A DNA stretch of 64,000 bases from Sphingomicrobium aestuariivivum (GTDB lineage: Bacteria > Pseudomonadota > Alphaproteobacteria > Sphingomonadales > Sphingomonadaceae): the NCBI RefSeq assembly GCF_024721585.1, contig NZ_CP102629.1, positions 1,746,501 to 1,810,500 on the forward strand, given 5' to 3'. The notes beneath the pieces were generated by a model. The model searched no databases. It saw only the letters and a program-made list of their open reading frames with translations, and was not told the origin of the DNA. Of the stretch, positions 21,463 to 37,513 are shown piece after piece (position 1 is the stretch's first letter; each line of letters starts with the position of its first letter). The position numbers were made by a program, and so were the translations under genes.

Positions 21463-22039
21463 GGCCGCCGCGACTCGCCCCCGCCGACAGCATCCGAGTC
21501 GCGCCGAAAGTCGGGTCTCCGACACGGCAATGCGGACTTTTGTTTCGTTTCGGGACGTGCCTTTTCGAGATTCTTTGGCAATGCGCGGGGCCCGCCCGCC
21601 AAGCACAAATTTAACTGCGACTTTTATCAACGTGGCAAATTAAGGGTTAACCATCACGGGTAAACCTTAATCTGTATCAATCTTCACAGTCGATTGAAAA
21701 GGCGCGTTCATTATCCTCTGTCGTTTAGTTCACTCCTACTGCGAATAGCTTGTGATCTTGGGAATGAGAGGCGCGACTAGTGGAAATCGTCTCAGGAGTT
21801 AATCTTCAAAAGTTAACAGTTCTTGAGGCGGCGACCTTGAGTAAAGTCACTCGAGATGACTCTGTCATGTGAGCGCTCAACTTGCATTTATCGTCCAAAT
21901 CATGATCAATCCCTGCATCTGAAGCGGTGGGCCGGTGATTGCGTTAACCATTTCCGTTTAACGCCAGCGCAACTTCCACCGATCAAAGCGGGGGCGATCT
22001 GACCAGTCGCCCCGGGAAACAAAGAAGGTGGGACGACAC
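21463..22039 (+). promoter_or_regulatory. 577-base AT-richer regulatory region upstream of the giant adhesin
   Basis: No credible gene lies here and the stretch is visibly less GC-rich than its surroundings. It contains the glpK hairpin, then TCAATC-N9-GATTGA (21677-21697), AGTCA-N7-TGACT (21845-21861), the palindrome TGAGCGCTCA (21870-21879) and GCGTTAA-N10-TTAACGC (21941-21964). TTAACCAT occurs at 21647-21654 and 21944-21951. The adhesin start ATG 22040 has GGTGGGA 6 bases upstream. I cannot place a confident -35/-10 pair. Confidence 0.55.
21469..21503 (+). terminator. Hairpin just after glpK
   Basis: A perfect 9-bp stem, CGCGACTCG (21469-21477) and CGAGTCGCG (21495-21503), with a 17-base loop, 6 bases past the glpK stop. 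No T tract follows, so it may be a weak terminator or an mRNA 3' stabiliser. Confidence 0.45.
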
Positions 22040-25000
22040 ATGCGACAGGATGAGCTTTCGATGACGCAGGGCGCACAAGGCGCCGATCTCCAGCAGCCCG
22101 AAATCGTGCTGCCGGAAAATGCGGTGCGCGTAGCACCCGGCCCCGGCGGCTCGGTCAATCTTCCCGAAGGCACCGAGGTCGACGACATCACCGTCGCCGG
22201 CCGCGACCTCGTCGTCCAGCTGCCCGATGGCAGCTACATGATCATCGAAGGCGGCGCCGTCTTCGTGCCCCAGCTCAATATCGGCAGTGTCGAGGTTCTC
22301 CCCACCACCCTCGCCGCGCTGCTGATCGGTGAAGAGCCCCAGCCCGCCGCGGGCGACACGCCCTCGAGCGGCGGCAACTTCGGCATTCCCGTGCCGCCGC
22401 TGCCCCCCGGCATTGGCCTCGGCGACCTGCTTCCCCCCACCGCGCTCTTCTACACCCCGCCCGAATATCGCGAGCTGGGCCTGTTCGAAAACGACGTGCC
22501 GGAAATCGTCATCCAGACGCCCGAGGTGCCCTTCGGCCTGCCCAATGCCTTCGCGATCGTCGACGAAGCCGGCCTGCCGGCGAACGGGCCGCTGCGCGGC
22601 GACGACGAGCCTGCCGGTACCGGCGAGGATGACGATGGCAATCTGACCAACAACAGCGACGCCAGCGAATTCACCGGCGGCACCTTCGTCTTCTCCTCGC
22701 CCGACAATGCCATCCCGGTGGTCGAGGCAGGCGGCCTGACGATCAATGGCGTGGTGGTGATCTACAACGAGAACACCAACCCCCCGCCCGAGGAATGGCA
22801 GGCCATCCAGGGTGAATATGGCATCCTGTACATCACCGGCGGCCTCGAGAACGGCTTCGTGACGTTCCAATATGTCCTCTCGGACAACACCATCGGTGCC
22901 GAGACCGACAATTTTATCGTCACCGTCACCGACCCCGACGGCGATAGCGCTACGGCGACGCTGACCATCCAGATCATCGACGACAGCCCCGAGCCCGAGG
23001 ACGATGTCGTCACGCTGCAGCTCGGCCAGGACGAGGCCACGGGCAATGTCATCTCGGGCGAAGGCTCGGACGACGGCGCGGACAGCGCCGACATCATGGG
23101 CGCCGACGGGTTCAAGGACTGGGGCCTCGTCATCGACGGCCAGGACGTGGTCATCACCGGTCCCGGCTCGGTGAAGACCGACTATGGCACGCTCTTCTAT
23201 GACGCCGAGGGCGAATGGACCTATGTGCGCGACGAGGGCGGCGCCGGCGGCAAGACCGAGGTGTTCGAATATTTCGTGCGCGACGGCGACAACAGCCGCG
23301 AGACCGCCACGCTGACCATCATCATTCCCGATGAAGGTCCCGACGTCGAAGTGCCGCAGGACAATGCGGACAATCCGGCGCTCGGCGCGCCCGGCACTTT
23401 CGTGTTCGAATGGGGCCTCGATGCTGGCGAGAACGGCAGCCCCGGCACGCAGGCCGCGGGCAATGGCGAGACGACCAACGGCACCGTCACCTTCACCGAC
23501 GGTGACGCGCCCTCGACCTTCGAGATCGACGGCACGCCCGTGACCGCCGGCTCGATCGTCAACGGCGAGCATGGCACCCTCGAAGTGCTCTCGATCGAGA
23601 ATGGCGAGCTCACCTATCGCTACACGCTGACCGAGAATACCGATGGTAACAGCACCTCGGACAGCTTCGAGATCACCGTGATCGATCCCGACGATCCCAA
23701 TGATCCCAATGATGACGAGAAGGTCACCAAGACCCTCACCATCCAGATCATCGATGACGAGCCGATCGCGCTGGACGATGCCAACAGCATCGCCGCGGGC
23801 GAATATGGCCCCGCCACCGGCAATGTGATCGACGAAAATGACACCCCCGGCGCCGATGACGGCACCGTCACCGCGATCGCCAGCGTCAACGTGCCCGCCA
23901 ACGAGAGCGAAGGCGAAGGCACGCTGGTGATCCAGGGTGAATATGGCGTGCTCACCATCGAGGCCGATGGCGACTACAGCTATGTCCGCGACTTCGGCAC
24001 CGAAGGCGGCGTCGAGGACGTGTTCACCTACACGCTGACCGACGGCGACCAGGATCCGACCACCGCCCAGCTGGTCATCAGCATCGGCGATGATGGCGTG
24101 ACCGTCTCGATCCCCGAGCCGGGCGGCGACAGCACGACCGTCTATGAAGATGCACTGCCCGCGCGCGGCGAGGAGCCGGCGGGCACCGACGAACTCGGCG
24201 GCGGCGTCAATGACGATCCGGGCGAATTCACCAGCGGCACGGTCACCTTCATCTCGAAGGACGGCCTTGGCGGCATCAGCGTGGCAGGCACGGCGCTCGT
24301 GCTCGACGGTGCCTTCCCGCAGACCGTGTCGAGCGATGCCTCCGGCGTCCTCGTCATCACCGGCGTCAGCTATGATGCGGAAACCGGCATCGGCTCGTTC
24401 GATTACGAATATACGCTCATCGACAACACGCTGACCGATCCGGACAGCGTCAGCTTCACCGTCGAGGTGAGCGATGCCGATGGCGATTCCAACGAGTTCG
24501 CCGAACTCGAGATCGCGATCATCGACGATGCGCCGATCGCCTATGCCGACACCGATTCGATCAACGAGTCCGACCTCGGCCTCGCCACCGGCAATGTCAT
24601 CACCGACGCCGATCCGGGCGATGCGGGCGACAGCGACGACGGGGCCGACAATGCCGGTGCCGACAATGCCACGGTCGTCGGCGTGGTCGCCGGCGAGAAT
24701 CTCAACGGCGACGGCACCGACCTGGTCGACACCGTCAACGGCGAGGTCGGCATGCAGCTCGACGGTCTCTACGGCACGCTGACGCTCTACAGCGACGGCA
24801 GCTACGACTATGACCTCGACAATGGCGATCCTACCGTCACCGCGCTTGTCGACGGGCAGGAGATCTTCGACGTCTTCACCTACACCATCGAGGATGGTGA
24901 CGGCGACCGGGACAGCCAGACGCTGACCATCACCATCATCGGCGACAATGCCGGCCCGTCGGTCCGCAACGTCACCCTGTCGGTGTCGGAAGAAGGCCTG

Positions 25001-28000
25001 GCTGGCGGCAATCCCGACAGCGCTGGCGTCGACGACGACACCAACTCGGACATGGACACGGCCGACGTGCAGGGTAGCGATCCCGACGGCGATACGCTGA
25101 CCTACAGCATCGCGGCGCCGACGACCGGCACCTATTACAGCGCCGACGGGCAGGTCATCACCTGGGTCCAGGTCGATCCGCAGACGGTCGAAGGCCGTGC
25201 CGGCGGCGAGGAAGGCCCGCTCGTCATCACGGTCAGCATCGACAGCGCCACCGGCGTCGTCAAAGCCGACCTTGACGCGCCGATGTACCACGGCACCCCG
25301 CCCAGCGATGGTGACGGCAACATCGAAGGCCAGCTGACTATCGCCTTCGGCGTGACGGCGACCGATCCCGACGGCGTGGAAGGTACGTCGGTCGCGACCG
25401 TCGAGGTCGAGGACGACAGCCCGCTCGCCGGCGTCAAGACCGGTGAACCCGTGCCGAGCATCACGCTCGACGAGAGCTTGCCGTCCGAGGACGGCCTCGC
25501 CGAGGATTCGGCCAACTTTGCCGGCAACTTCAACATCGCGCCCGTCCAATATGGCGGCGACGGCCCCGGCACGGTCGCCTACAGCCTCGTGCTGATCGAC
25601 ACTGGCGATGAAGGCATCGGTTCGGGTCTCTATGCGCTCGATCCGAGCGATGTCGACGGCGTCCTCGGCGACGGCGACGGTGTCGGCCAAGGCGACGAGA
25701 TCATGCTCGTCAACGATGGCGGCACGATCAAGGGCATGGCCGGTGGCCAGACCTACTTCACCATCACCGTGGACAATACGGGCGAGGTGACCTTCACCCA
25801 GCTGCTCAACATCTGGCATTCGGACACCGGCGATCATGACGATGCCGAAGGGCTCGTTGCCAATGGCGGTTCGCTGGTCCTGCGCCAGACCGTCACCGAC
25901 GACGACAATGACAGCGCGACGGCCGATCTCGACCTGTCGGCGGGCGTCTTCTCGATCGAGGATGACGGCCCCGACGCGGTTGCCGACGAGGAAGCCGGTC
26001 TCGACACGCTGACGCTCGACGAAAGCCTGCCGTCCGAAGACGGCATCGCGGAAGCGATGGCCGACTTCTCGGACAATTTCGACCTCGTCATCGACTATGG
26101 AACCGATGGTGCGGGCAGCGTGACCTACTCGCTCGTCCTCGCCGCCGCCAATCTCGGTTCGGGCCTCTATGCGCTCGACCCCAGCGATACCGACGCGGCC
26201 GCCGACGATGGTGACGGGATCGGGCAGGGCCAGGAAATCCTGCTCAACATCAATGCCGACGGTGACACGATCACCGGTTCGGCGGGTGGCACCGATTACT
26301 TCACCATCACGATCGATGGCACGGGCCAGGTGACCTTCACCCAGCTCGAGAACATCTGGCACGGTGATCCCGGCGACGACGACGACAGCGAGGCGATCGA
26401 CCTTGTCGAGGGCAGCATCCTCGTGCGCCAGACGGTGAAGGATGCCGACGGCGACAGCGACAGCGACGATGTCGACGTCTCCTCGGGGGTCTTCTCGATC
26501 GAGGATGACGGTCCGCATGCCGAGGCCAATCCGCAGGCCGCGCTCGACACGCTGACGCTCGACGAGAGCCTGCCGTCCGAAGACGGCATCGTCACCGCGA
26601 GCGCCCAGTTCGCGGACAATTTCAACCTCGTCATCGACTATGGCACCGACGGTGCGGGCAGCGTGACCTATACGCTGGTCCTCAACGGCGCCAATGTCGG
26701 CTCGGGCCTCTATGCGCTCGATCCCAGTGACACCGACGCGCTGGCTGACGACGGTGACGGCATCGGCCAGGGACAGGAAATCCTGCTCAACATCAACGGG
26801 GCCGGCGACACCATCACCGGTTCGGCCGGCGGGGTCGACTATTTCACCATCACCGTCGACGGCTCGGGCGAAGTGACCTTCACGCAGCTCGAGAACATCT
26901 ATCACGGCGATCCGACCGATCCCGACGACGGCGAGGACATCGCCCTTGCCGCCGAGACCATCCAGGTGCGCCAGACGGTGACCGATGCCGATGGCGACAG
27001 CCATTCGGACGAGGTCGACCTGTCGACGGGTGTCTTCTCGATCGAGGATGACGGTCCCGATGCAGAGGCCAAGGACGGCGTCGATCCCGACACGCTGACG
27101 CTCGACGAGAGCCCGCTGTCGGAAGACGGGATCAACCCCGTCTCGGCCAACTTCGCTGACAATTTCGTCGAACTCATCGACTATGGCACCGACGGTGAAG
27201 GCGACGTCGTCTACTCGCTGTTCCTCAACGGCAGCAATGTCGGCTCGGGCCTCTATGCGCTCGATCCCAGCGACACTCTGGGGGTTGCCGACGATACCGA
27301 CGGCATCGGGCAGGGCGAGGAGATCCTCCTCAACCTCAATGCCGATGGCGACACCATCACCGGTTCGGTCGGTGGTACCGACTATTTCACCATCGAGGTC
27401 GATACCGAGACCGGTGAAGTGACCTTCACCCAGATCAACAATATCTGGCACGGCAACACGGGCGACAATGACGACAGCGAGGCCATCGACCTTGCCGCCA
27501 ACACCATCGAGGTTCGCCAGACGGTGATCGATGCCGACGGCGACAGCGACACTGCTGCTGTCGACCTGTCGACGGGTGTCTTCTCGATCGAGGATGACGG
27601 TCCGAGCCGGACCGACGCCGAGCTTTCGGGCACGGTCGACGAAGACGGCCTCACCGATGGTATCGAAGGTGGCATCGGCGACGTCGTGGGCACCAACACC
27701 GTGCTCAACGGCAGCGTCACCTCGCTGTTCGACCTCGGCACCGACGGTGCCGGCACCTACGGGATCGACAGCGCGGTGCTCGGCGCCAGCGGGCTGACCT
27801 CGGGCGGCGCGGCGATCACCTATTCGCTCAGCGACAGCGGCGACACGCTGATCGCGCACACCGGCGCCGACAAGAATGTCGCCAGTGCGCAGGTCTTCAC
27901 GCTGCAGGTCGCGGCCAACGGTGCCTACACCTTCACGCTGCTCGGCCCGATCGACCATGAGAGCCTCGACGGGTTGGCGGGCGATGACACCGAGAACGAC

Positions 28001-30520
28001 CTTGTCCTCAACCTCAGCGGCGCGATCATCGCCTATGATGCGGACGGCGACAGCGTGAGCGCCTCGGGTGACGATTTCCTCGTCACCGTCGATGACGACA
28101 CGCCGGTCGAATTCACCGCCGATGCGGTGGCCTCGCTCGACGGCGACCAGCCGCCGATCACCGCCGATCTCAACCTCGCCATGGGCGCGGACGGTCTCGG
28201 CGTCGACGGCCTCGAGTTCGACATCGTCGACAACACCATCGCCACGGACCAGGAAGGCAACCAGCTCCGTCTCGACGGGCAACTGCTCTACTTGTTTGGC
28301 GACGGCACCGACACGCTGGTGGCGACCACCGGCATGAACGGCACCGGCGATGTCGGCTTCATCGTCACGCTCAACGCCGATGGCACCTACACCTTCGACG
28401 TCGAAGGCGTGATCACTAACGGTACCGCGACGAGCTTTACCGATCTCTCCTCGACCAAGGCGGGTAATGTGAGCTTTGCCGCGATCGGCGCCGATAATCC
28501 GGCCAACACTGCGGACAATATCGATGTCATCGTCTCGGCGGTGAACGAGCTGGGCGGTGCCGCCACGGTCAACACCAACGTCGACCAGATCGGTGCCGAC
28601 TCGCAGGCGATCGCGCCGGGCTATGTGATCCGTTTGGACCTCGTCCAGAACGCCCAGTCGGGCGGCCCCGCGCCGAGCGGCTTCAGCTTCGACAGCTATG
28701 AAGGGACCGACCGCTTCCAGCAGGAAATCCCGCAGGTCCAGGGCAGCAACAATACGGTCGCGATCCGCGTCGGTGCGGTCTTCGAGACGGTGCAGGACCA
28801 GACCTTCTCCTACGATCTCGACAGCCTTGCCGATGGCAATGAGTCGATCCAGGAGATCACTTCGGTCACGATCTACGACTATGTGAAGGCGGGCAATGGG
28901 AAGAACTTCGTCGCCTCCTACACGGTCGAGGATCCGGGCAATGACACGCCGGTCAGCGTCAATGGCGGCCAGTATGAGGTCACCTTCCACGATGACGGCA
29001 CGGTCACCATCGACGGCCTTGGCGCGACCGATGAATATGCCATCGAAACGAGCACCGATTTCAACTCGGTGATCGTCGAAGCTGATCCGGCCAACACCGA
29101 GAACTTCGACCTCGGCATCTTCACGCTGGGTCGCGAGACGGCCGGTATCCCGATCGACCAGGACTTCGACGTCATCGCCACCGATGCGGACGGCGACAGT
29201 GTCACGGGCCAGGTCGAGACCACGATCATCCAGCAGTTCGCCGGCAACCTCGTCGGGACCAACGGCGACGACGTGCTCACCGGTAACGGCGATGCCGACT
29301 CGATTGCCGGCAATGACGGGAACGATCAGATCACCGGCTTCGCAGGCAGCGACTATCTCTACGGCGGCGCGGGTGACGACATCATTGCCGGTGGTGACGG
29401 CAACGACTACATCCGCGGCGGCAACGGCAATGATGAAGTCTATGGCGGCGCCGGCGGCGATATCTTCGTCATGTCGTACAGCTCGGTGACCGACGGCAGT
29501 GTCGACACCATCGGCGACTACAAGACGTCCGATGCGGATATCATCGATCTCAGCAAGCTGCTCGAGGTGCCGAACGGGACCGACCTCAACGGCGGCGGTT
29601 ATGTCCGCTATCTCGATGACGGCACCCTGCAGGTCGATGTCGACGGCGGTGGTGACAATTGGGTCACCGTGGCCACCGTTTTCTCGAGCCCCGGCGTGCA
29701 CCCCGCCTCCGTCTACGTGGTGGTCGAGAGCCAGGGCAGCAGCTTCGTCGTGGTCAATGCGCAACCGGCACCGATGGCGCTCTCGATGAGCCTGAGCGCC
29801 GGCCAGACGCTGGTCGTCGCCAATGACGAGGCCGAGATCTCCAAGTCGCTCATGATGGCCTCGGCGGTCGCGGTAGGCTTCGGTCTTGCCGCGATGAACG
29901 AGACGATGCCGATGCAGTCGCTGCAGGCACCGGAAACGGTCGATGCCGACAGCTTCTCGACCATGAGCATCGAGGCGATGGGCGGCTACGAAGCCACCGC
30001 GCCGGACATGTCCGCGCTGCATCCCGAAGCCGCCTTCCTTGGCGAACCGGTCAGCGTGGAAGCGCCGTCTGTGTCGTCGGGCGAGGCCGCGGCCTTCGGC
30101 TCGGTCGAGGGTGACCTCGGCCAGCCGGATGCGGGCAGCAACAGCGCGATGGTAACCGAACAGGTCGCCTTCGAGGCACCCGAAGCGCCGGCCGCCTTTG
30201 CCGGTGGCGAGGTGGTGATGCCCGGTGCCGACGCGCTTGCCGCGCTGGCCGCGGGGCACGCGCAGGGCGTCGCGCCGGAGCTGGCCGACGTACTTGGCGA
30301 TGCATTGCTGAAGGGCGATGCGGGCGACGTGCTCGAGACCGCGCTTGCGGCGCTCGGCGAAGGGCATACTGCGCTGGATCAACTGGCCATGTTGCCGGCC
30401 AATGATGCTGCCTCGATTTGGGGTGATGCGCAAAATGCTGGATTTACCGCCGATTTCGGGGCAAATGTAGATATGGAAGCGATGATGCTTCAACCCGATG
30501 CGGGGCTGGCCAACGGCTAG
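22040..30520 (+). CDS. Giant repetitive RTX adhesin, T1SS substrate with Lap-type PAAG site
   Basis: A predicted exported adhesin of 2826 residues without a signal peptide. In order: an N-terminal module (1-105) ending in P102-A103-A104-G105, the dialanine motif LapG-type proteases cut in LapA-like adhesins; a Pro-rich linker; T1SS-143-like Asp/Gly/Thr-rich repeats ending TLTIQIIDD(S/E)P (about 200-1100); four 181-183-residue DUF5801-like repeats (1143-1855); further beta-rich domains; RTX nonapeptides such as GGAGDDIIAGGDGNDYI (about 2410-2480); and a 260-residue tail past the RTX block. ATG 22040 is chosen over GTG 22028, which lacks a binding site. The secretion genes lie directly downstream. 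Confidence 0.93.
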   Translation: MRQDELSMTQGAQGADLQQPEIVLPENAVRVAPGPGGSVNLPEGTEVDDITVAGRDLVVQLPDGSYMIIEGGAVFVPQLNIGSVEVLPTTLAALLIGEEPQPAAGDTPSSGGNFGIPVPPLPPGIGLGDLLPPTALFYTPPEYRELGLFENDVPEIVIQTPEVPFGLPNAFAIVDEAGLPANGPLRGDDEPAGTGEDDDGNLTNNSDASEFTGGTFVFSSPDNAIPVVEAGGLTINGVVVIYNENTNPPPEEWQAIQGEYGILYITGGLENGFVTFQYVLSDNTIGAETDNFIVTVTDPDGDSATATLTIQIIDDSPEPEDDVVTLQLGQDEATGNVISGEGSDDGADSADIMGADGFKDWGLVIDGQDVVITGPGSVKTDYGTLFYDAEGEWTYVRDEGGAGGKTEVFEYFVRDGDNSRETATLTIIIPDEGPDVEVPQDNADNPALGAPGTFVFEWGLDAGENGSPGTQAAGNGETTNGTVTFTDGDAPSTFEIDGTPVTAGSIVNGEHGTLEVLSIENGELTYRYTLTENTDGNSTSDSFEITVIDPDDPNDPNDDEKVTKTLTIQIIDDEPIALDDANSIAAGEYGPATGNVIDENDTPGADDGTVTAIASVNVPANESEGEGTLVIQGEYGVLTIEADGDYSYVRDFGTEGGVEDVFTYTLTDGDQDPTTAQLVISIGDDGVTVSIPEPGGDSTTVYEDALPARGEEPAGTDELGGGVNDDPGEFTSGTVTFISKDGLGGISVAGTALVLDGAFPQTVSSDASGVLVITGVSYDAETGIGSFDYEYTLIDNTLTDPDSVSFTVEVSDADGDSNEFAELEIAIIDDAPIAYADTDSINESDLGLATGNVITDADPGDAGDSDDGADNAGADNATVVGVVAGENLNGDGTDLVDTVNGEVGMQLDGLYGTLTLYSDGSYDYDLDNGDPTVTALVDGQEIFDVFTYTIEDGDGDRDSQTLTITIIGDNAGPSVRNVTLSVSEEGLAGGNPDSAGVDDDTNSDMDTADVQGSDPDGDTLTYSIAAPTTGTYYSADGQVITWVQVDPQTVEGRAGGEEGPLVITVSIDSATGVVKADLDAPMYHGTPPSDGDGNIEGQLTIAFGVTATDPDGVEGTSVATVEVEDDSPLAGVKTGEPVPSITLDESLPSEDGLAEDSANFAGNFNIAPVQYGGDGPGTVAYSLVLIDTGDEGIGSGLYALDPSDVDGVLGDGDGVGQGDEIMLVNDGGTIKGMAGGQTYFTITVDNTGEVTFTQLLNIWHSDTGDHDDAEGLVANGGSLVLRQTVTDDDNDSATADLDLSAGVFSIEDDGPDAVADEEAGLDTLTLDESLPSEDGIAEAMADFSDNFDLVIDYGTDGAGSVTYSLVLAAANLGSGLYALDPSDTDAAADDGDGIGQGQEILLNINADGDTITGSAGGTDYFTITIDGTGQVTFTQLENIWHGDPGDDDDSEAIDLVEGSILVRQTVKDADGDSDSDDVDVSSGVFSIEDDGPHAEANPQAALDTLTLDESLPSEDGIVTASAQFADNFNLVIDYGTDGAGSVTYTLVLNGANVGSGLYALDPSDTDALADDGDGIGQGQEILLNINGAGDTITGSAGGVDYFTITVDGSGEVTFTQLENIYHGDPTDPDDGEDIALAAETIQVRQTVTDADGDSHSDEVDLSTGVFSIEDDGPDAEAKDGVDPDTLTLDESPLSEDGINPVSANFADNFVELIDYGTDGEGDVVYSLFLNGSNVGSGLYALDPSDTLGVADDTDGIGQGEEILLNLNADGDTITGSVGGTDYFTIEVDTETGEVTFTQINNIWHGNTGDNDDSEAIDLAANTIEVRQTVIDADGDSDTAAVDLSTGVFSIEDDGPSRTDAELSGTVDEDGLTDGIEGGIGDVVGTNTVLNGSVTSLFDLGTDGAGTYGIDSAVLGASGLTSGGAAITYSLSDSGDTLIAHTGADKNVASAQVFTLQVAANGAYTFTLLGPIDHESLDGLAGDDTENDLVLNLSGAIIAYDADGDSVSASGDDFLVTVDDDTPVEFTADAVASLDGDQPPITADLNLAMGADGLGVDGLEFDIVDNTIATDQEGNQLRLDGQLLYLFGDGTDTLVATTGMNGTGDVGFIVTLNADGTYTFDVEGVITNGTATSFTDLSSTKAGNVSFAAIGADNPANTADNIDVIVSAVNELGGAATVNTNVDQIGADSQAIAPGYVIRLDLVQNAQSGGPAPSGFSFDSYEGTDRFQQEIPQVQGSNNTVAIRVGAVFETVQDQTFSYDLDSLADGNESIQEITSVTIYDYVKAGNGKNFVASYTVEDPGNDTPVSVNGGQYEVTFHDDGTVTIDGLGATDEYAIETSTDFNSVIVEADPANTENFDLGIFTLGRETAGIPIDQDFDVIATDADGDSVTGQVETTIIQQFAGNLVGTNGDDVLTGNGDADSIAGNDGNDQITGFAGSDYLYGGAGDDIIAGGDGNDYIRGGNGNDEVYGGAGGDIFVMSYSSVTDGSVDTIGDYKTSDADIIDLSKLLEVPNGTDLNGGGYVRYLDDGTLQVDVDGGGDNWVTVATVFSSPGVHPASVYVVVESQGSSFVVVNAQPAPMALSMSLSAGQTLVVANDEAEISKSLMMASAVAVGFGLAAMNETMPMQSLQAPETVDADSFSTMSIEAMGGYEATAPDMSALHPEAAFLGEPVSVEAPSVSSGEAAAFGSVEGDLGQPDAGSNSAMVTEQVAFEAPEAPAAFAGGEVVMPGADALAALAAGHAQGVAPELADVLGDALLKGDAGDVLETALAALGEGHTALDQLAMLPANDAASIWGDAQNAGFTADFGANVDMEAMMLQPDAGLANG
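25466..27603 (+). repeat. Four tandem DUF5801-like repeats in the adhesin
   Basis: Units begin with LTLDESLPSEDG-like sequence at 25466, 26015, 26558 and 27101, spaced 549, 543 and 543 bases (183, 181 and 181 codons). Each contains GSGLYALDPSD, YFTI, VTFTQ, a H-(S/G)-(D/N) loop, RQTV and ends GVFSIEDDGP. The high similarity at DNA level points to recent duplication or gene conversion. Confidence 0.85.
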
Positions 30521-30533
30521 CCCTCGGCGGGCG

Positions 30534-30561
30534 GGGGTGGCACCGATGCCCGGTGCACCCC
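30534..30561 (+). terminator. Hairpin between adhesin and tolC-like gene
   Basis: GGGGT (30534-30538) plus GCACCG (30540-30545) pair with CGGTGC (30551-30556) plus ACCCC (30557-30561), with one bulged G and a 5-base loop. There is no T tract. It may partly terminate, or protect the 3' end of the adhesin mRNA and set the ratio of adhesin to secretion parts. Confidence 0.45.
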
Positions 30562-30592
30562 TCGCATGTGTGGGACCAGAGAGGGGCAGAAC

Positions 30593-32011
30593 ATGAAGAA
30601 GCGTTTGATTGCAGTCGCGTCGGTCACCATGGCCGCGATCCTTGGGAGCCCTGCACAGGGCGCCGACCTGCGTGAAGCCATTGCTTACGCGCTCCAGACC
30701 AGCCCGGAAGTGCGCCAGGCGGTGCACAACCGCGAGGCCACCATGTTCGAGCGCAAGCAGGCACAGGGTCTCTACTACCCGCGCATTTCGGTCGAGGCCT
30801 CGGCAGGGATCCGCGAGCTTCGCAACCCGACCCGTCGTTCGCTCGGCATCGCCAATGACACGCTTTATCCGCGCGAGATCGCGCTGACGGTCGACCAGCT
30901 CCTGTGGGACAATGGCGCCCGTGAAGCCGAGGTCGGCTACCAGGCCGCGCGCACCGATGCCGCCGCGGCGCGCATCGAGGAGCGCTCCGAATATATCGCG
31001 CTGAATATCAGCCGCGCCTATATCGACTACCTCCTGCAGCAGCGCCTCGTCGCCATCGCGCAGGACAATGCCGCCTTCCACCAGGGCCTCGTCAACGACC
31101 TCCAGTCGGGTGTCGATGCCGGCTCGATCTCGATCGCCGACCTCCAGCAGAGCCAGGAGCGCCTGCAGTCGGCGCAGGCCCGCGTCGTCGAGGCGCAGGA
31201 AGAGCTGGACGTCGCCGCGATCAGCTTCGAGCGCCTTGCCGGCATGCCGATCGGCAATGTCTCGATGCCGCCCGACCTGTCGAACGCCATGCCCGACACG
31301 CTTGGTGCCGCGATCGAACTGGCGCGCCTCGAGAACCCGATGGTCGAGGAAGCCAAGCACGACTATGCCGCCGCGCGCGAACTCATCGACAAGGCCAAGG
31401 GCGAGATGGGCCCGCGCTTCAACCTCGAAGGTCGCGTCCGCTACGGCGAGGACATCGACGGCTTCGATGGCATCACCGAGGATTACCAGGCCCGCGGCGT
31501 GATGCGCTGGGACGTCTTCACCGGTGGCACCAACGCCTACAATGTGCGCGAGCAGCAGGCGCGGGCCGACGAGGTCCATGCCCGCCTGTTCGAAAAGCAG
31601 CGTGATGCCGAGGAACTGGCCCGCGCCGCCTGGTCGCGCCTCACCAACCAGGGCCGTCTTGCCGACGAGCTGGCGACGCAGAGCCGCATCACCGATGACC
31701 TGCTCCTGTCCTATCGCGAGCAGTTCAACGTCGGTCGCCGTTCGCTGCTCGACGTGCTCGACGCGCAGAATACCCGCTACAATGTGCAGGCGCAGCTCGA
31801 GACCGCGCAGCTGGCGCAGCTCTATGCCCAGTATCGCGTGCTCGCGGCGACGAATCGGCTGGTCTGGGCGATGGGTGCAGAAATCCCGACGCCTGGCTAC
31901 GTCCGGACTGCGGTTGACCAATATTGGGTCGATCCCGTCGAGCCCGTTGAACTCCAGGAAGACAGCATGGAATACCCGCCGATGGGCCCGCCGGCCGTCG
32001 ACGAAGACTAA
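30593..32011 (+). CDS. TolC-family outer membrane channel of the adhesin type I secretion system (LapE-like)
   Basis: A 472-residue TolC-family protein, from ATG 30593 with GAGAGGGG upstream. The signal peptide MKKRLIAVASVTMAAILGSP is cut near QGA-DLRE. OEP domains follow: DLREAIAYALQTSPEVRQAV, long helices, NISRAYIDYLLQQRLV, and the second repeat with YREQFNVGRRSLLDVLDAQN, a highly conserved TolC motif. It would form the outer membrane tunnel for the adhesin encoded just upstream. It is not a lipoprotein, unlike the efflux channel at 14963-16396. The next gene starts 18 bases later. Confidence 0.93.
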   Translation: MKKRLIAVASVTMAAILGSPAQGADLREAIAYALQTSPEVRQAVHNREATMFERKQAQGLYYPRISVEASAGIRELRNPTRRSLGIANDTLYPREIALTVDQLLWDNGAREAEVGYQAARTDAAAARIEERSEYIALNISRAYIDYLLQQRLVAIAQDNAAFHQGLVNDLQSGVDAGSISIADLQQSQERLQSAQARVVEAQEELDVAAISFERLAGMPIGNVSMPPDLSNAMPDTLGAAIELARLENPMVEEAKHDYAAARELIDKAKGEMGPRFNLEGRVRYGEDIDGFDGITEDYQARGVMRWDVFTGGTNAYNVREQQARADEVHARLFEKQRDAEELARAAWSRLTNQGRLADELATQSRITDDLLLSYREQFNVGRRSLLDVLDAQNTRYNVQAQLETAQLAQLYAQYRVLAATNRLVWAMGAEIPTPGYVRTAVDQYWVDPVEPVELQEDSMEYPPMGPPAVDED

Positions 32012-32029
32012 AAATGAATGGAACGGGGT

Positions 32030-34210
32030 ATGAGTTTTGCCGCATGGCTATCCGATGAGCAGTCGCACGCGCTCGACCCCGTTCTAGACTGCCTTGCCTA
32101 TGTCGCCCGCATGGGTGACCGGCCTTCATCGCCAGTCCTGCTCCGCGCAGGGCTGGCGCTTGACGAACAGGGGCTGCTTCCCTTCCACCAGATCGAACCC
32201 GCACTCGAACAGGCGGGCATGCGCGGCACGCCCGTCGAACAGCGGCGGCTGCGCGGCTGGCGCCCCGAGGCGCTGCCCGCGATCCTCGAACTGGAAGCGG
32301 GCCGAGCGGCGGTGCTGCTCGAACTCGAGGGTGCGCAGGCGCTCGTCTACGCCCCCGGCCTCGAGGAGCCGCTGTGGATCGAGCGCGCCGAACTGGCGCC
32401 CGTGATGACCGGCCGCGCGGTCGAGGTCGAGCCCGACCCCACCCGCGAACGCGAAGGCGAGCGTCCTTGGGACAAGGCGACCAAGCGCCACTGGTTCTGG
32501 TCCGAGGTGTGGAAGGCGCGCCGCGATTTCCGTCCCGTGCTGCTGGCAGCGATGGTGATCAACCTGCTCGCGCTCGCGGTGCCGCTGTTCACCATGAACG
32601 TCTATGACCGCGTCATTCCCAACGAGGCCGTGTCCTCGCTGTGGGTGCTGGCCGCCGGCGTCGGGCTGGCCCTGTGCTTCGACTATGCGCTTCGCCTCGC
32701 CCGTTCGCGGCTGGTCGACGAGATCGGGCGCAAGCTCGACGCGCGCTATTCGCAGCGCATCTTCGAGAAGGTGATGAACCTGCCGCTGGCGGAGCGGAAG
32801 GGCTCGACCGGCGCCTTTGCCCGCCGCGTGTCGGAATATGAGCAGGTGCGCGACTTCTTTGCCTCCACCAGCGTCGTGCTGCTGGTCGACATCGCCTTCA
32901 TGGGCATCTTCCTCCTCTTCATCGCGCTGCTGGCGGGCTGGCTCGTCTTCGTGCCGATCGTGATGATCGCCGTGATGGTGATCGTCGGCTTCTCGCTGCA
33001 AAAGGCGATGGGGCGCACCGCATTGGACGCACAGGCCGACGCCAGCCTCCAGCACAGCGTGCTGGTCGAGGCAATCGGCGGGGCCGAGACGCTCAAATCG
33101 GCGCGCGCCGAAGGGCAGATGCTCGGTCGGTGGCGCCGCTTCGCCAATATGTCGGCGGCGACGCAGCAGCGGATGCGCCGCCTCACCGCCATCGCCACCA
33201 ACCTTGCCGCCGTCACCCAGCAGGCGATGAGCGTGGCGCTCATCATCGGCGGCTTCTACCTCTTCCACTCGGGCGACATCACGATGGGCGCGATCATCGC
33301 CATCGTCATGATCGCGGGCCGCGCCATGGCCCCCGTCGGCCAGTTCGCGCTCCTCATGACCCGCGCCAAGCAGGCGAGCGCCACGCTCGACAGCCTGCAG
33401 GAAATGATGGAGGCGCCCGACGAGCGCGCCGCCGCCAGCCGCTCGATCGTGCCGCAGGTGCGCGAGGGGCAGGTGGCGATGGAGCGCCTGTCCTTCCGCT
33501 ATCCGGGCGCCGCGACCGACAGCCTGTCGGAAATGACGCTCCGGATCGAACCGGGCGAGCGGGTCGGCATCATCGGTCGCGTCGCCTCGGGCAAGTCGAC
33601 CTTCGGGCGCGTGCTGTGCGGCCTCTATGCCCCGACCGAGGGCGTGATGACCGTCGACGGGCTCGACAGCCGCCAATACCACCCGCACCAGCTCCGCGAT
33701 GCCTTCCGCTTCGTCGGGCAGGATGCCGAGCTTTTCTCGGGTACGGTGCGCGACAATCTCATGCTCGGCGCGGCGCGCGCGAGCGACGAGGAACTGGTCG
33801 ACGCGGTGCGCCGCTCGGGCGCCGACCTCTTCCTCAGCCAGGGCGCGGCAGGTTTCGACCTGTCGGTTGGCGAGCGCGGCAGCGCGCTGTCGGGCGGGCA
33901 GCGCGCGCTGCTGGTGCTGGCGCGGGCGCTGGTCTCCGATTGCAAGACGCTGTTCCTCGACGAGCCTACGGGCGCCATGGACACGCAGACCGAACGCTAT
34001 TTCATCGACAAGCTCGGCAAGGCTCTCCGCCCCGACCAGACGCTCGTCGTCTCCACCCATCGCCACCAGATGCTGTCGATCGTCGACCGCCTGCTGGTGA
34101 TCGACAAGGGTCGCCTGATTGCCGACGGACCGCGCGACGAGGTGCTCGCCAGCCTGACGCAGGCCGCGACCAAGTCGGGCGGCGTGCCGACCCCCGGAGG
34201 CGACCGGTGA
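32030..34210 (+). CDS. Type I secretion ABC transporter (LapB-like ATPase/permease)
   Basis: A 726-residue fused permease-ATPase. An N-terminal C39-like domain (about 1-130) lacks the catalytic Cys of true peptidase domains, as in LapB and HlyB. Transmembrane helices (about 165-440) include LLAAMVINLLALAVPLFTMNVYDRV. The ATPase has Walker A GRVASGKST, signature LSGGQRALLVLARAL, Walker B KTLFLDEPTGAMD and STHRHQM. The Walker A Ala replaces the more usual Gly. ATG 32030 is preferred over 32018 because GAACGGGG lies just upstream. Its stop overlaps the next start as GTGA. It should export the giant adhesin. Confidence 0.94.
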   Translation: MSFAAWLSDEQSHALDPVLDCLAYVARMGDRPSSPVLLRAGLALDEQGLLPFHQIEPALEQAGMRGTPVEQRRLRGWRPEALPAILELEAGRAAVLLELEGAQALVYAPGLEEPLWIERAELAPVMTGRAVEVEPDPTREREGERPWDKATKRHWFWSEVWKARRDFRPVLLAAMVINLLALAVPLFTMNVYDRVIPNEAVSSLWVLAAGVGLALCFDYALRLARSRLVDEIGRKLDARYSQRIFEKVMNLPLAERKGSTGAFARRVSEYEQVRDFFASTSVVLLVDIAFMGIFLLFIALLAGWLVFVPIVMIAVMVIVGFSLQKAMGRTALDAQADASLQHSVLVEAIGGAETLKSARAEGQMLGRWRRFANMSAATQQRMRRLTAIATNLAAVTQQAMSVALIIGGFYLFHSGDITMGAIIAIVMIAGRAMAPVGQFALLMTRAKQASATLDSLQEMMEAPDERAAASRSIVPQVREGQVAMERLSFRYPGAATDSLSEMTLRIEPGERVGIIGRVASGKSTFGRVLCGLYAPTEGVMTVDGLDSRQYHPHQLRDAFRFVGQDAELFSGTVRDNLMLGAARASDEELVDAVRRSGADLFLSQGAAGFDLSVGERGSALSGGQRALLVLARALVSDCKTLFLDEPTGAMDTQTERYFIDKLGKALRPDQTLVVSTHRHQMLSIVDRLLVIDKGRLIADGPRDEVLASLTQAATKSGGVPTPGGDR

Positions 34211-35235
34211 ACCGGAGCCTCACTTTCCGCCGCGTCTCGGTCGCGCTGGTCCTGCTCCTCGTGACGGGGCTGATGGTGGCGGGCGCGCTTCTTTTCCCGA
34301 TGGGAGCCAGGGCACCTGCCACGCCCGTCGAGGCCAAGGTCCAGGTGCCGCTGCCCGCGCCCGACAAGGTGGTCGAGGCGGCGACCGGCACGGCGGTCAC
34401 CGACATGACCGCGCTGGGGAAAAGCGCCGAAGTCATCAACGCCTCGCTGCCTTTTGCGGGCGGACCGGTTCTTTCGGCACGCGCCTTCACCGCCGCGGCG
34501 CCCGGCAGCCTGTCCTATGACCGCGCGCACCTGTGCCTGACGCAGGCCATCTATTACGAGGCGGGATTCGAGCCGGTCGAGGGGCGCCGCGCGGTCGCGC
34601 AGGTCGTCCTCAACCGTGTCCGTCACCCCGCCTTCCCCGCGAGCGTCTGCGGCGTCGTCTACGAAGGCGCCAAGAAGCGCGTCTGCCAGTTCAGCTTCAC
34701 CTGCGATGGCTCGCTCGACCGGCGACCGGCAGCCGGCGCCTGGGCGACCGCCAAGCGGATCGCCGCCGACGCGCTGGCGGGGCATGTCGAGAAATCGGTT
34801 GGCATGGCGACCCATTATCACGCCGACTATGTCGCGCCGCGCTGGGCGCCGATGCTCGACAAGGTCGAGAAGCTGGGCGCGCACATCTTCTATCGCTGGC
34901 CGGGGGGCTGGGGGCGGCCTGCCGCTTTCCGCATGGGCTACCAGGGCGAGCCGCGCAGCATCGCGTCGCTGCAGCGCAACGCTCCCCCGGTCGGCGCCCT
35001 CGTGGGCGAGCAACTGGCCGAGGCGATCGCGCCCGAGCCCAAGCCCTTCCCGACGCGGGACGAGGATCCGACCATCCGCCGCGCCGACAATGACGTCGGC
35101 GGGCTGATCGACACCTCGAAGGGCTGGCGCCCGAGCATGCCCGATCCGACGCGGACGGGCAGCGCGGTCGCCCGCGTCAACCACACTCAGACCGCGCGCG
35201 CGGCAACGCCCGCGCTCCCCGGGGGGGGACAGTAA
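34207..35235 (+). CDS. SleB-type cell wall hydrolase inside the secretion operon
   Basis: A 342-residue protein with an N-terminal membrane anchor or signal (VSVALVLLLVTGLMVAGALL, residues 10-29), a linker, and a SleB/CwlJ-like hydrolase domain (about 105-225). YYEAGFEPVEGRRAVAQVVL carries the family's catalytic Glu; VCGVVYEG and CQFSFTCDG are the other conserved blocks. The family cleaves peptidoglycan (lytic transglycosylase or amidase-like). The start is GTG 34207, overlapping the LapB-like stop by 4 bases (GTGA). It ends overlapping the LapC-like start by one base (TAATG). It is thus translationally embedded in a type I secretion operon, probably to open the cell wall for the channel (inference). 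Confidence 0.9.
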   Translation: MNRSLTFRRVSVALVLLLVTGLMVAGALLFPMGARAPATPVEAKVQVPLPAPDKVVEAATGTAVTDMTALGKSAEVINASLPFAGGPVLSARAFTAAAPGSLSYDRAHLCLTQAIYYEAGFEPVEGRRAVAQVVLNRVRHPAFPASVCGVVYEGAKKRVCQFSFTCDGSLDRRPAAGAWATAKRIAADALAGHVEKSVGMATHYHADYVAPRWAPMLDKVEKLGAHIFYRWPGGWGRPAAFRMGYQGEPRSIASLQRNAPPVGALVGEQLAEAIAPEPKPFPTRDEDPTIRRADNDVGGLIDTSKGWRPSMPDPTRTGSAVARVNHTQTARAATPALPGGGQ

Positions 35236-36524
35236 TGAACGCCTTTTCCTTCATCGACCGCAACCGCGACGAGAATCGCACGCCGCCGAGCGCGGCGCGC
35301 ACGACGATCCTCCTCATTGCCGGCGCCTTTGCCGCCTTCCTGATCTGGGCGGGGCTGATCGCCGAGGTGGACGAGGTGACGCGCGGGCCGGGACAGGTCA
35401 TTCCCTCCTCCAAGGTGCAACTGATCCAGGCATCGGAGCCCGCGGTCGTGGAGGAATTGCTGGTGCGCTCGGGCGAGCGGGTCGAGGCGGGCCAGCTGCT
35501 CGCGCGGCTCGATGACACGCAGAGTGCCTCGGCGCTGGGCGAGATCGCGGCCGAAACGCGCAGCCTAGAGGCCCGCGAGGCACGGCTGCGCGCCGAAGGA
35601 ACGGGTGGGACGCTGTCCTGCGAGGGTGCCGACTGCGATGCGGAAAGCGCGGTCATCGCGGCCCGCCGCTCGGCGCTGTCGAGCCGCGTCAGTGCCTTGA
35701 ACGCGCAGGCCCGCCAGGCGCAGGCCGACGCGCAGGAAGCCAGCGCCACCATCTCCAGCCTGACCTCGAGCCTGCGGCTGGCGCGCGAGAATGTCGGGCG
35801 CCTCGCCCCGCTCGCCGAGCGCGGCATCGTGCCGCAGACCGACCTTGCCGATGCCCGCCGCGAGGTCATCGACCTCGAGGGGCGCATCGCCGCGGCGCGC
35901 GAGCAGCGCACGCGGGCGCAGGCCGCGGTCGCGGAAGCCAATGCGCAGGCCGCCGAGGCGCGGGCCGATTTCGCGCAGCAGGCGCTGGACGAGCGCAGCC
36001 AGGTGGCGAGCCGGATCGCGGTCAATCGCGAAAGCCTGCGCGGGGCCGAAGGGCGGCTGGCGCGCACCGAGTTGCGCTCGCCCGTGGAAGGCGTAGTGAA
36101 CAACCTTGCCGTCACCACCATCGGCGGATTCGTCCAGGCCGGCGAGAGCATCATGGAAGTGGTGCCGATCGGCGACAAGCTGCTCGTCGAGACGCGGGTG
36201 AAACCGTCAGACATCGCCTTCGTCGCGGTCGGCGATCCCGCGCTGGTCACCGTCACCGCCTATGATTTTTCGATCTACGGGGGCCTCGACGGCAAGGTCG
36301 TCGAGATCAGCGCCGACAGCATCTATGACGAGGTCGAGCGCGAAGCCTATTTCAATGTCATCGTCGAGACCGATAAAGCCTATCTGGAATCGGGCGCGAC
36401 CCAGCTCCCGATCACACCGGGCATGATGACCGACACGCAGATCATCACGGGTCAGAAGAGCGTGCTGGCCTACCTGCTCAAGCCGTTGAACAAGGCGCGC
36501 CGCGAAGCACTGACCGAGCATTAG
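35235..36524 (+). CDS. HlyD-family type I secretion adaptor (LapC-like)
   Basis: A 429-residue periplasmic adaptor. One transmembrane segment (TTILLIAGAFAAFLIWAGLIA, about 19-39) is followed by the lipoyl half EEVTRGPGQVIPSSK-type region, a long coiled-coil hairpin (about 100-265) and the conserved C-terminal HlyD block PVEGVVNNLAVTTIGGFVQA. This block is diagnostic for type I secretion adaptors rather than drug efflux. Its ATG overlaps the SleB stop (TAATG). It links the LapB-like transporter to the TolC-like channel. Convergent with the LapG-like protease, 15 bases away. Confidence 0.93.
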   Translation: MNAFSFIDRNRDENRTPPSAARTTILLIAGAFAAFLIWAGLIAEVDEVTRGPGQVIPSSKVQLIQASEPAVVEELLVRSGERVEAGQLLARLDDTQSASALGEIAAETRSLEAREARLRAEGTGGTLSCEGADCDAESAVIAARRSALSSRVSALNAQARQAQADAQEASATISSLTSSLRLARENVGRLAPLAERGIVPQTDLADARREVIDLEGRIAAAREQRTRAQAAVAEANAQAAEARADFAQQALDERSQVASRIAVNRESLRGAEGRLARTELRSPVEGVVNNLAVTTIGGFVQAGESIMEVVPIGDKLLVETRVKPSDIAFVAVGDPALVTVTAYDFSIYGGLDGKVVEISADSIYDEVEREAYFNVIVETDKAYLESGATQLPITPGMMTDTQIITGQKSVLAYLLKPLNKARREALTEH

Positions 36525-36539: not shown

Positions 36540-37448
36540 CTAGTTGGCGGTGTAGGCCGCGAGCTGGACCGGCGCGATGCGCGTCGGGCGGGGCGCGGTC
36601 TCGCGCTTGTAGCCGTGGATCCACGCCTTGCCCGCCGAATAGCTGAACACGGGCTTGTAATCGCGCACCGCGTCGGAATCGAGGAGGCGGTCGGTCGAAT
36701 TGTCGAGCACGAGGAAGCGACCCTCGTGGCGCACCACCAGCACCGCATGGTCGGCGCGGCGGACGAGATCCTTCAAGACGACGAGATAGAGGTCGTCGGC
36801 GGCAAAGCCGGCGGCGCGGAGCATCTGCATCTTGGCGATGGCATAATCCTCGCAGTCGCCGCGGCCCGAGCGAAGCGTCTCCGCGGCGGCGTTCCAGCGG
36901 TCGGCGCGGCCGGTCGCGGCGCGGTCGTCGGTGAAGGTGACGGCGCGGTTCACATAGGCGTTGATGCCGAGGAGCGCGTCCATGCGGTCGGCGGCGGCAA
37001 AGCGGCGCGCGACGTCGGCGGCACGGCCGAGCGAGCGGCGCGCGAACACATTGGCGAAACGCGCATCGAAGGCGGTCTTCGACACCGACAGCGCGGTCGA
37101 ACCGAAGACGTCGGGGCGGCTGGCATGGGCGGTGCGCAGCATCGGCGCGGCGCGGTGGGCGGGGGCGAACCCCTCGAAGGTCGGCTTGGCGGCCATCAGT
37201 GCGCTCGCCATCATCAGCGGGGTGCCCGACTGGCGCGCCTGGAGCGCGGCGAGCGCCGAGGGGGCGCCGATGATCGCGCTGGCGGCAGCAGGGCTCGAGA
37301 CGGGTTGCGCGGCGGCAATGGCGAGCCGCGGCGGCGGGGCGTTACGGTCGGTGCCTGCGCTCGCCGCTGCGCTTGCGGCCAGCGCCGGCGAGGCACCGGC
37401 GAGCGCCAGCATGGCGGGGAGGGCGAGAAGGGAGGCACGCTTGATCAT
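36540..37448 (-). CDS. LapG-type periplasmic transglutaminase-like cysteine protease (BTLCP)
   Basis: A 302-residue protein with a signal peptide (MIKRASLLALPAMLALAGAS, cut after ALA) and a C-terminal BTLCP domain (PF06035, about 130-280). The triad is visible: Cys199 in GRGDCEDYA, His234 in RRADHAVLVV and Asp249 in LVLDNSTDR. The acidic residues around the Cys match those that bind calcium in LapG. LapG cleaves LapA-type adhesins after a dialanine, and the adhesin here has PAAG. The region between signal and protease domain is Ala-rich. The start is ATG 37448; TTG 37457 is an alternative. Convergent with the secretion operon. Confidence 0.88.
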   Translation of the reverse strand: MIKRASLLALPAMLALAGASPALAASAAASAGTDRNAPPPRLAIAAAQPVSSPAAASAIIGAPSALAALQARQSGTPLMMASALMAAKPTFEGFAPAHRAAPMLRTAHASRPDVFGSTALSVSKTAFDARFANVFARRSLGRAADVARRFAAADRMDALLGINAYVNRAVTFTDDRAATGRADRWNAAAETLRSGRGDCEDYAIAKMQMLRAAGFAADDLYLVVLKDLVRRADHAVLVVRHEGRFLVLDNSTDRLLDSDAVRDYKPVFSYSAGKAWIHGYKRETAPRPTRIAPVQLAAYTAN

Positions 37449-37513
37449 GCCGCCCAACTTGCCGAGGCAAGCCGAATATCTGGCTAAGGGTTAAGGTTAA
37501 AATCGCGGTAAGC

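Follow-up and report, generated by a model that had tools for sequence, protein, structure and literature searches.

A SleB-type wall hydrolase gene coupled to a LapB/LapC type I secretion locus in Sphingomonadaceae, and its possible role at the cell wall

Introduction

Why should a gene for a peptidoglycan hydrolase stand between the exporter and the adaptor genes of a type I secretion system? These systems are taught as made of three parts, with no wall-breaching enzyme, unlike the type III, IV and VI machines. The question arises from a locus of Sphingomicrobium aestuariivivum, located in the stretch of 64,000 nucleotides analysed here (the window), where a sequence-only reading had noticed a SleB-type gene within an operon of the LapB/LapC kind and supposed that its product may open the wall for the channel or for the adhesin.

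Machines that cross the wall commonly have a dedicated hydrolase encoded with them, in many cases a lytic transglycosylase (PMC5061870). In the part consulted of an extensive review on type I and efflux systems, such an enzyme is not mentioned for either (PMC8277102). Our literature search, in which few subscription papers and preprints were covered, found no earlier account of a type I system with a wall hydrolase of its own.

Results

The locus and its junctions

On the forward strand the genes follow one another as RTX adhesin, TolC, LapB, SleB and LapC, with lapG convergent to them (Table 1). The hydrolase gene is embedded in this secretion operon and coupled by overlap to both neighbours, just as the sequence-only reading had it: its GTG start lies within the lapB stop (GTGA, 34207-34210), and its TAA stop (35233-35235) shares position 35235 with the ATG of lapC (TAATG, 35233-35237). 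Exporter, adaptor, a channel with OEP domains and a type I substrate are all found at one locus, as in an LssB/LapB-LapC type I secretion system (T1SS), and the LapG-type protease gene (Peptidase_C93) beside them is that of a Lap system with a retained adhesin.

Table 1. Genes of the secretion locus by position in the window
Feature	Position	Strand	Remarks
Giant T1SS adhesin, RTX/VCBS	22028..30520	+	2830 aa as longest ORF
TolC-family outer membrane channel	30566..32011	+	481 aa; PF02321 E 3.3e-42
LapB/LssB-type type I secretion ABC permease/ATPase	32018..34210	+	730 aa; TIGR03375 779.8 bits, above cut-off
SleB-domain (PF07486) peptidoglycan hydrolase	34207..35235	+	342 aa; GTG start
LapC/HlyD-type periplasmic adaptor	35235..36524	+	429 aa; TIGR01843 363.6 bits, above cut-off
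LapG-like periplasmic cysteine protease (Peptidase_C93), facing the operon	36540..37457	-	PF06035 E 9e-19

The TolC-family protein scores 210 bits with TIGR01844, slightly under the cut-off of 225, and the LapG-like protease 74 bits with the LapG equivalog NF045674, under its cut-off of 320. The profile of the c-di-GMP receptor LapD (PF16448) has zero matches in the S. aestuariivivum genome and likewise zero in the control genomes. The adhesin carries DUF5801/T1SS-143 repeats, VCBS and RTX repeats and a T1SS C-terminal target domain, and a PAAG site at its N-terminus together with SSGGNF suggests a putative LapG-cleavable retention module. Inside its gene (window 25463-27604) about four repeats of some 543 nt, which represent DUF5801/T1SS-143 units, are 68-84% alike. 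An open frame of 3312 codons runs antisense to the adhesin and tolC genes (window 21983-31921, reverse strand); it seems to result from G+C-rich codon usage rather than to be a gene. The genome, a single contig of 2.35 Mb, holds three PF07486 genes, and secretion genes adjoin only the one described here.

The SleB-type protein

The protein is laid out as an N-terminal membrane anchor (residues about 12-30), a linker, a catalytic domain (about 98-230) and a disordered tail. PF07486 (Hydrolase_2) matches residues 122-229 with E 3.7e-26 and 92.1 bits, the curated cut-off being 27. The predicted catalytic domain overlays the solved structure 4fet_A with Z 16.4 and rmsd 2.2 Å over 121 aligned residues, and 4f55 with Z 16.2; both of these SleB catalytic domains are also retrieved by sequence with a profile of the T1SS-linked SleB family (E 3e-14). 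Outside the anchor and the catalytic domain the whole-protein model is weak, its mean pLDDT being 62.

Residue E118 aligns with the Glu of the YGE motif of 4f55 and 4fet, which, going by the alignment, we take to be the catalytic Glu of SleB. A catalytic Glu is essential in SleB (PMC12331253). E118 is invariant in an alignment of 26 sequences, and the equivalent Glu is kept at 57 of 57 loci of a second set, so the active-site residue that had been proposed for mutation is indeed there. Many positions of the active-site half are likewise invariant columns of the T1SS-linked alignment, and so are the cysteines 110, 148, 160 and 166, as would suit a domain that is periplasmic and held by disulphide bonds. 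In each of 33 proteins examined there is one hydrophobic segment near the N-terminus and no further transmembrane segment, and the N-terminus is mostly positive. Judged from its family and the conserved Glu, the window protein is most likely a lytic transglycosylase. It is not a SleB orthologue, because its score with TIGR02869, the equivalog of the spore cortex SleB, is 57.1 bits against a cut-off of 236.5. The T1SS-linked SleB proteins are under purifying selection: dN/dS is 0.01-0.20 in eight of nine close pairs, and 0.43 in the window pair.

Conservation inside the family

The supposition that this is a conserved sphingomonad variant was borne out. The SleB subtype is encoded by 87 of 398 Sphingomonadaceae genomes, belonging to 28 of 96 genera; among the carriers are Sphingomonas alba SE158, Sphingomicrobium nitratireducens O-35, Rhizorhapis suberifaciens DSM 7465, Croceicoccus ponticola GM-16, Erythrobacter ani WH131 and Qipengyuania gaetbuli DP7N0-1. 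We read the flanks at 57 loci, 52 of them from genomes outside the set used for the profile and the alignment (L276-L327) and five from known genomes, and the order LapB-SleB-LapC was found at 55. At these ordered loci TolC lies upstream in 54 cases, the remaining locus (L308) reaching the end of its contig, and a convergent lapG stands within the stretch read in 49. The two exceptions are a sleB with a PhoD-like phosphatase gene nearby, placed where its contig ends (L276, whose contig is also that of L183), and a second copy standing alone in genome G622 (L295: 5301-6380, forward strand), which has the tail motif described below and around which no type I genes were seen in the 11.8 kb read.

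The junction of lapB and sleB overlaps by four nucleotides (ATGA or GTGA) at 28 of 33 loci in the first set and at 35 of 55 in the second. The start codon closest to the end of lapB was taken for this count, a choice that favours overlaps, the ATGA or GTGA being physically present in each counted case. We reject a chance neighbourhood, since dozens of genomes show this gene order and retain the overlap. At one locus of the Sphingopyxis group a gene of a LuxR-type (GerE) regulator is placed between lapC and lapG (L093: 11828-12595, reverse strand).

The TIGR03375 LssB profile and the profile of T1SS-linked SleB were searched against the same 198 genomes. The hydrolase gene directly adjoins 36 of the 41 full-length LssB matches in Sphingomonadaceae (more than 680 bits). 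The five matches without it are in G174, G134, G150, G190 and, for one of its two, in G160; their LapC proteins score 429-486 bits, whereas those of SleB-linked loci reach about 620-670, and since these scores are far lower we assign the five loci to another clade. Neither SleB nor lapG was found at any of 20 N-truncated LssB loci of the same order (some 20 kb read at each).

Distribution outside the family

Of the LssB loci from other orders of Alphaproteobacteria, the 30 top-scoring ones all have LapC directly after LapB and no SleB in the stretch read. Among 289 Alphaproteobacteria only the S. aestuariivivum genome has the full-length subtype, and in 299 genomes sampled across the phylum it occurs only in Sphingomonadaceae. 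Thus the question whether the hydrolase gene is absent from most homologous loci, raised by the sequence-only reading against itself, has two answers: within the family most loci have it and the idea of a conserved variant stands, and outside the family the gene is indeed absent.

We therefore regard the gene as a lineage-specific innovation and not as a general T1SS part, the latter being ruled out by the SleB-less loci of other orders together with the N-truncated ones of the same order. The distribution is most simply explained by a single gain of the enzyme, no later than the ancestor of these Sphingomonadaceae. Other LssB-type systems, both those outside the family and the SleB-less ones within it, evidently function with no such enzyme.

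The C-terminal tail and the clade

The tail has a motif of the form D-V/I/A/L-GG-x-hydrophobic-D...W, which reads ADNDVGGLIDTSKGW in the window protein (residues 293-307). It is present in 109 of 112 linked-type SleB proteins versus 0 of 71 unlinked homologues, a test that is partly circular because the types were split by a profile score which includes the tail. Two proteins stand outside the circularity, having a low profile score and the motif: L177, operonic and cut short, and L194. The three misses look trivial, one being cut by a contig end (L170), one an apparently broken frame (L189) and one a one-letter variant (L176).

In the tree a single clade (SH-aLRT 96) unites all 51 T1SS-linked SleBs and contains five others. 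Sphingopyxis-group homologues (L213, L232, L240) lie inside this clade and lack the tail; the first of them (L213: 5782-6762, forward strand) has genes for an exosortase and a CAP-domain protein nearby. Distances between SleBs follow those of LapB (r 0.89) and LapC (0.86) more closely than those of LapG (0.71), species kinship being ignored in these values. That the gene arose as a recent duplicate of the other SleBs of the same genome is unsupported: these two, L002 and L003, are far off in the tree, their exact placement being unsure owing to long branches.

Decayed and rearranged loci

Three genomes have a copy of the subtype with no intact T1SS adjoining, at L064, L099 and the above-mentioned L295. 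At L064 (9448-15552, reverse strand, genome G164) the adhesin C-terminus, tolC and lapB are gone, lapC and lapG still adjoin, and the adhesin frame continues into SleB as one open frame of 2035 codons; this arrangement is either decay by deletion or an assembly error. L099 (9153-10546, forward strand, genome G080), which keeps SleB, LapC and LapG, a C-terminal remnant of LapB and no TolC nearby, is a second decayed locus.

Novosphingobium kunmingense has, besides a standard locus (L249), a second, rearranged type I locus (L248: 3244-13431), where a sleB with the tail motif overlaps tolC (ATGA). Divergent from this tolC-sleB pair run the genes of a giant DUF11/DUF7507 protein, of an LssB exporter truncated at its N-terminus and of LapC. 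In this one genome the enzyme accompanies type I parts in a new order.

Discussion

A conserved genetic linkage to a trans-envelope machine, by which a specialised wall hydrolase may be recognised, is present here. Taking together the gene order, overlap and conservation, the domain and fold, the Glu, the predicted anchor, the tail, purifying selection and restriction to one lineage, we consider it somewhat probable that a dedicated peptidoglycan-lytic SleB, anchored in the inner membrane and made together with LapB and LapC, opens the wall for the TolC-LapC channel and the retained adhesin; its activity, site, docking and the need of secretion or surface display for it are what we infer. That dedicated hydrolases are genetically linked to machines crossing the wall is a known principle (PMC5061870), and SiiA shows that an accessory binding the wall can belong to a type I system for a giant adhesin (PMC12607715). 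In such a scheme the enzyme would be held in the inner membrane by its one N-terminal helix with the catalytic domain in the periplasm, and would be made in step with LapB and LapC by means of the overlapping start and stop codons. It would probably act beside LapB-LapC, perhaps docked by the conserved C-terminal tail; local cutting of glycan strands might then let TolC and LapC join across the wall, and the giant RTX adhesin would be held in the opened wall until LapG releases it. Docking by the tail is a guess, and we draw no docking conclusion because the confidence of the tail model is low; gene coupling and vertical co-inheritance are no proof of a joint complex. Against the proposal also stand the LssB-type systems that do without the enzyme and the three genomes with a copy of the subtype but no intact T1SS beside it. 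The stronger suggestion, that this is a T1SS subtype with an obligatory fourth part, a SleB lytic transglycosylase docked by its tail on LapB/LapC and opening the wall for a stable, adhesin-loaded channel, we hold as tentative, a little short of even. As to type I secretion with a wall-hydrolase part, the sequence-only reading was right in its observation and in its supposition of a conserved variant, and the mechanism is a plausible hypothesis.

The enzyme may instead act after export, keeping a gap in the wall around the periplasm-spanning stem of the retained adhesin or clearing the wall at the LapG cut, so that it would serve retention and release and not secretion. This agrees with the presence of lapG at nearly all Sphingomonadaceae SleB loci and its absence from the stretches read at the 20 N-truncated and the five SleB-less full-length loci; however, the association of SleB and lapG, being confined to one clade, counts as one evolutionary event, and a locus outside the family (L078) has lapG without SleB. 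The known Lap systems that use LapG are not known to have a hydrolase either, and we judge an action after export to be unlikely. An accessory that does not cut at all, a peptidoglycan-binding clamp or spacer tying the exporter to the wall, could be imagined after what is thought of SiiA of Salmonella SPI-4, itself an accessory of a giant-adhesin T1SS that binds peptidoglycan (PMC12607715). Yet the SiiA fold is described as a wall-binding type and not a lytic domain (PMC12607715), whereas here the catalytic Glu is kept at all 57 loci and much of the active-site half is invariant, which makes a clamp improbable.

Nor do we see much room, indeed somewhat less than for a clamp, for an ordinary envelope hydrolase of general wall turnover that simply lies in the operon. 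Two other PF07486 genes in the genome, the many unlinked ones in alphaproteobacteria and the few genomes that retain the subtype without an adjacent T1SS would fit it, but many genera retain sleB, overlapping, in its place between lapB and lapC, its products form their own clade with their own tail, and the subtype is absent where the T1SS belongs to other types. That the exporter secretes the hydrolase encoded with it, for use outside the cell against other cells or matrix, appears very improbable: we rejected this role on account of the N-terminal membrane anchor and the lack of RTX repeats and of a T1SS C-terminal domain.

With the wall-opening proposal as the preferred reading, the three-part view of type I systems is challenged by a wall hydrolase that is conserved and coupled to the system across a large family of bacteria. 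It makes testable whether peptidoglycan limits TolC-type channels that are kept in place with a giant adhesin inside, and the restricted distribution supplies natural controls in the form of SleB-less sister systems, sometimes in the same genome (for instance G160, G162, G130, G050). If the enzyme were truly a fourth part, no type I system before this one would have had a wall hydrolase of its own, and TolC-based channels could be limited by peptidoglycan. It may also give a clue to how a long-lived adhesin channel crosses the wall.

Compared with known systems, the locus has in common with LapABC-LapG (Pseudomonas LapA, Legionella RtxA/LssB) the LssB exporter, HlyD adaptor, TolC, giant RTX adhesin and LapG-type gene; no wall hydrolase gene is described in those, whereas here one lies between lapB and lapC. 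With SiiA/SiiB of Salmonella SPI-4, which serve the SiiE adhesin, it shares an accessory that interacts with the wall in the type I secretion of a giant adhesin, but SiiA binds the wall, partners SiiB in proton conduction and is no SleB-type enzyme. VirB1 (type IV), EtgA (type III), FlgJ (flagellum) and TagX (type VI) are likewise encoded with their machines and likely cut the wall for assembly; they belong, however, to other enzyme families, and the machines they serve are not type I. With the spore cortex-lytic enzymes SleB/CwlJ (PF07486) the window protein shares the catalytic fold and the position of the Glu (4f55, 4fet), but its host is not a spore former, no N-terminal wall-binding domain was matched, and the protein has a membrane anchor and a new C-terminal tail.
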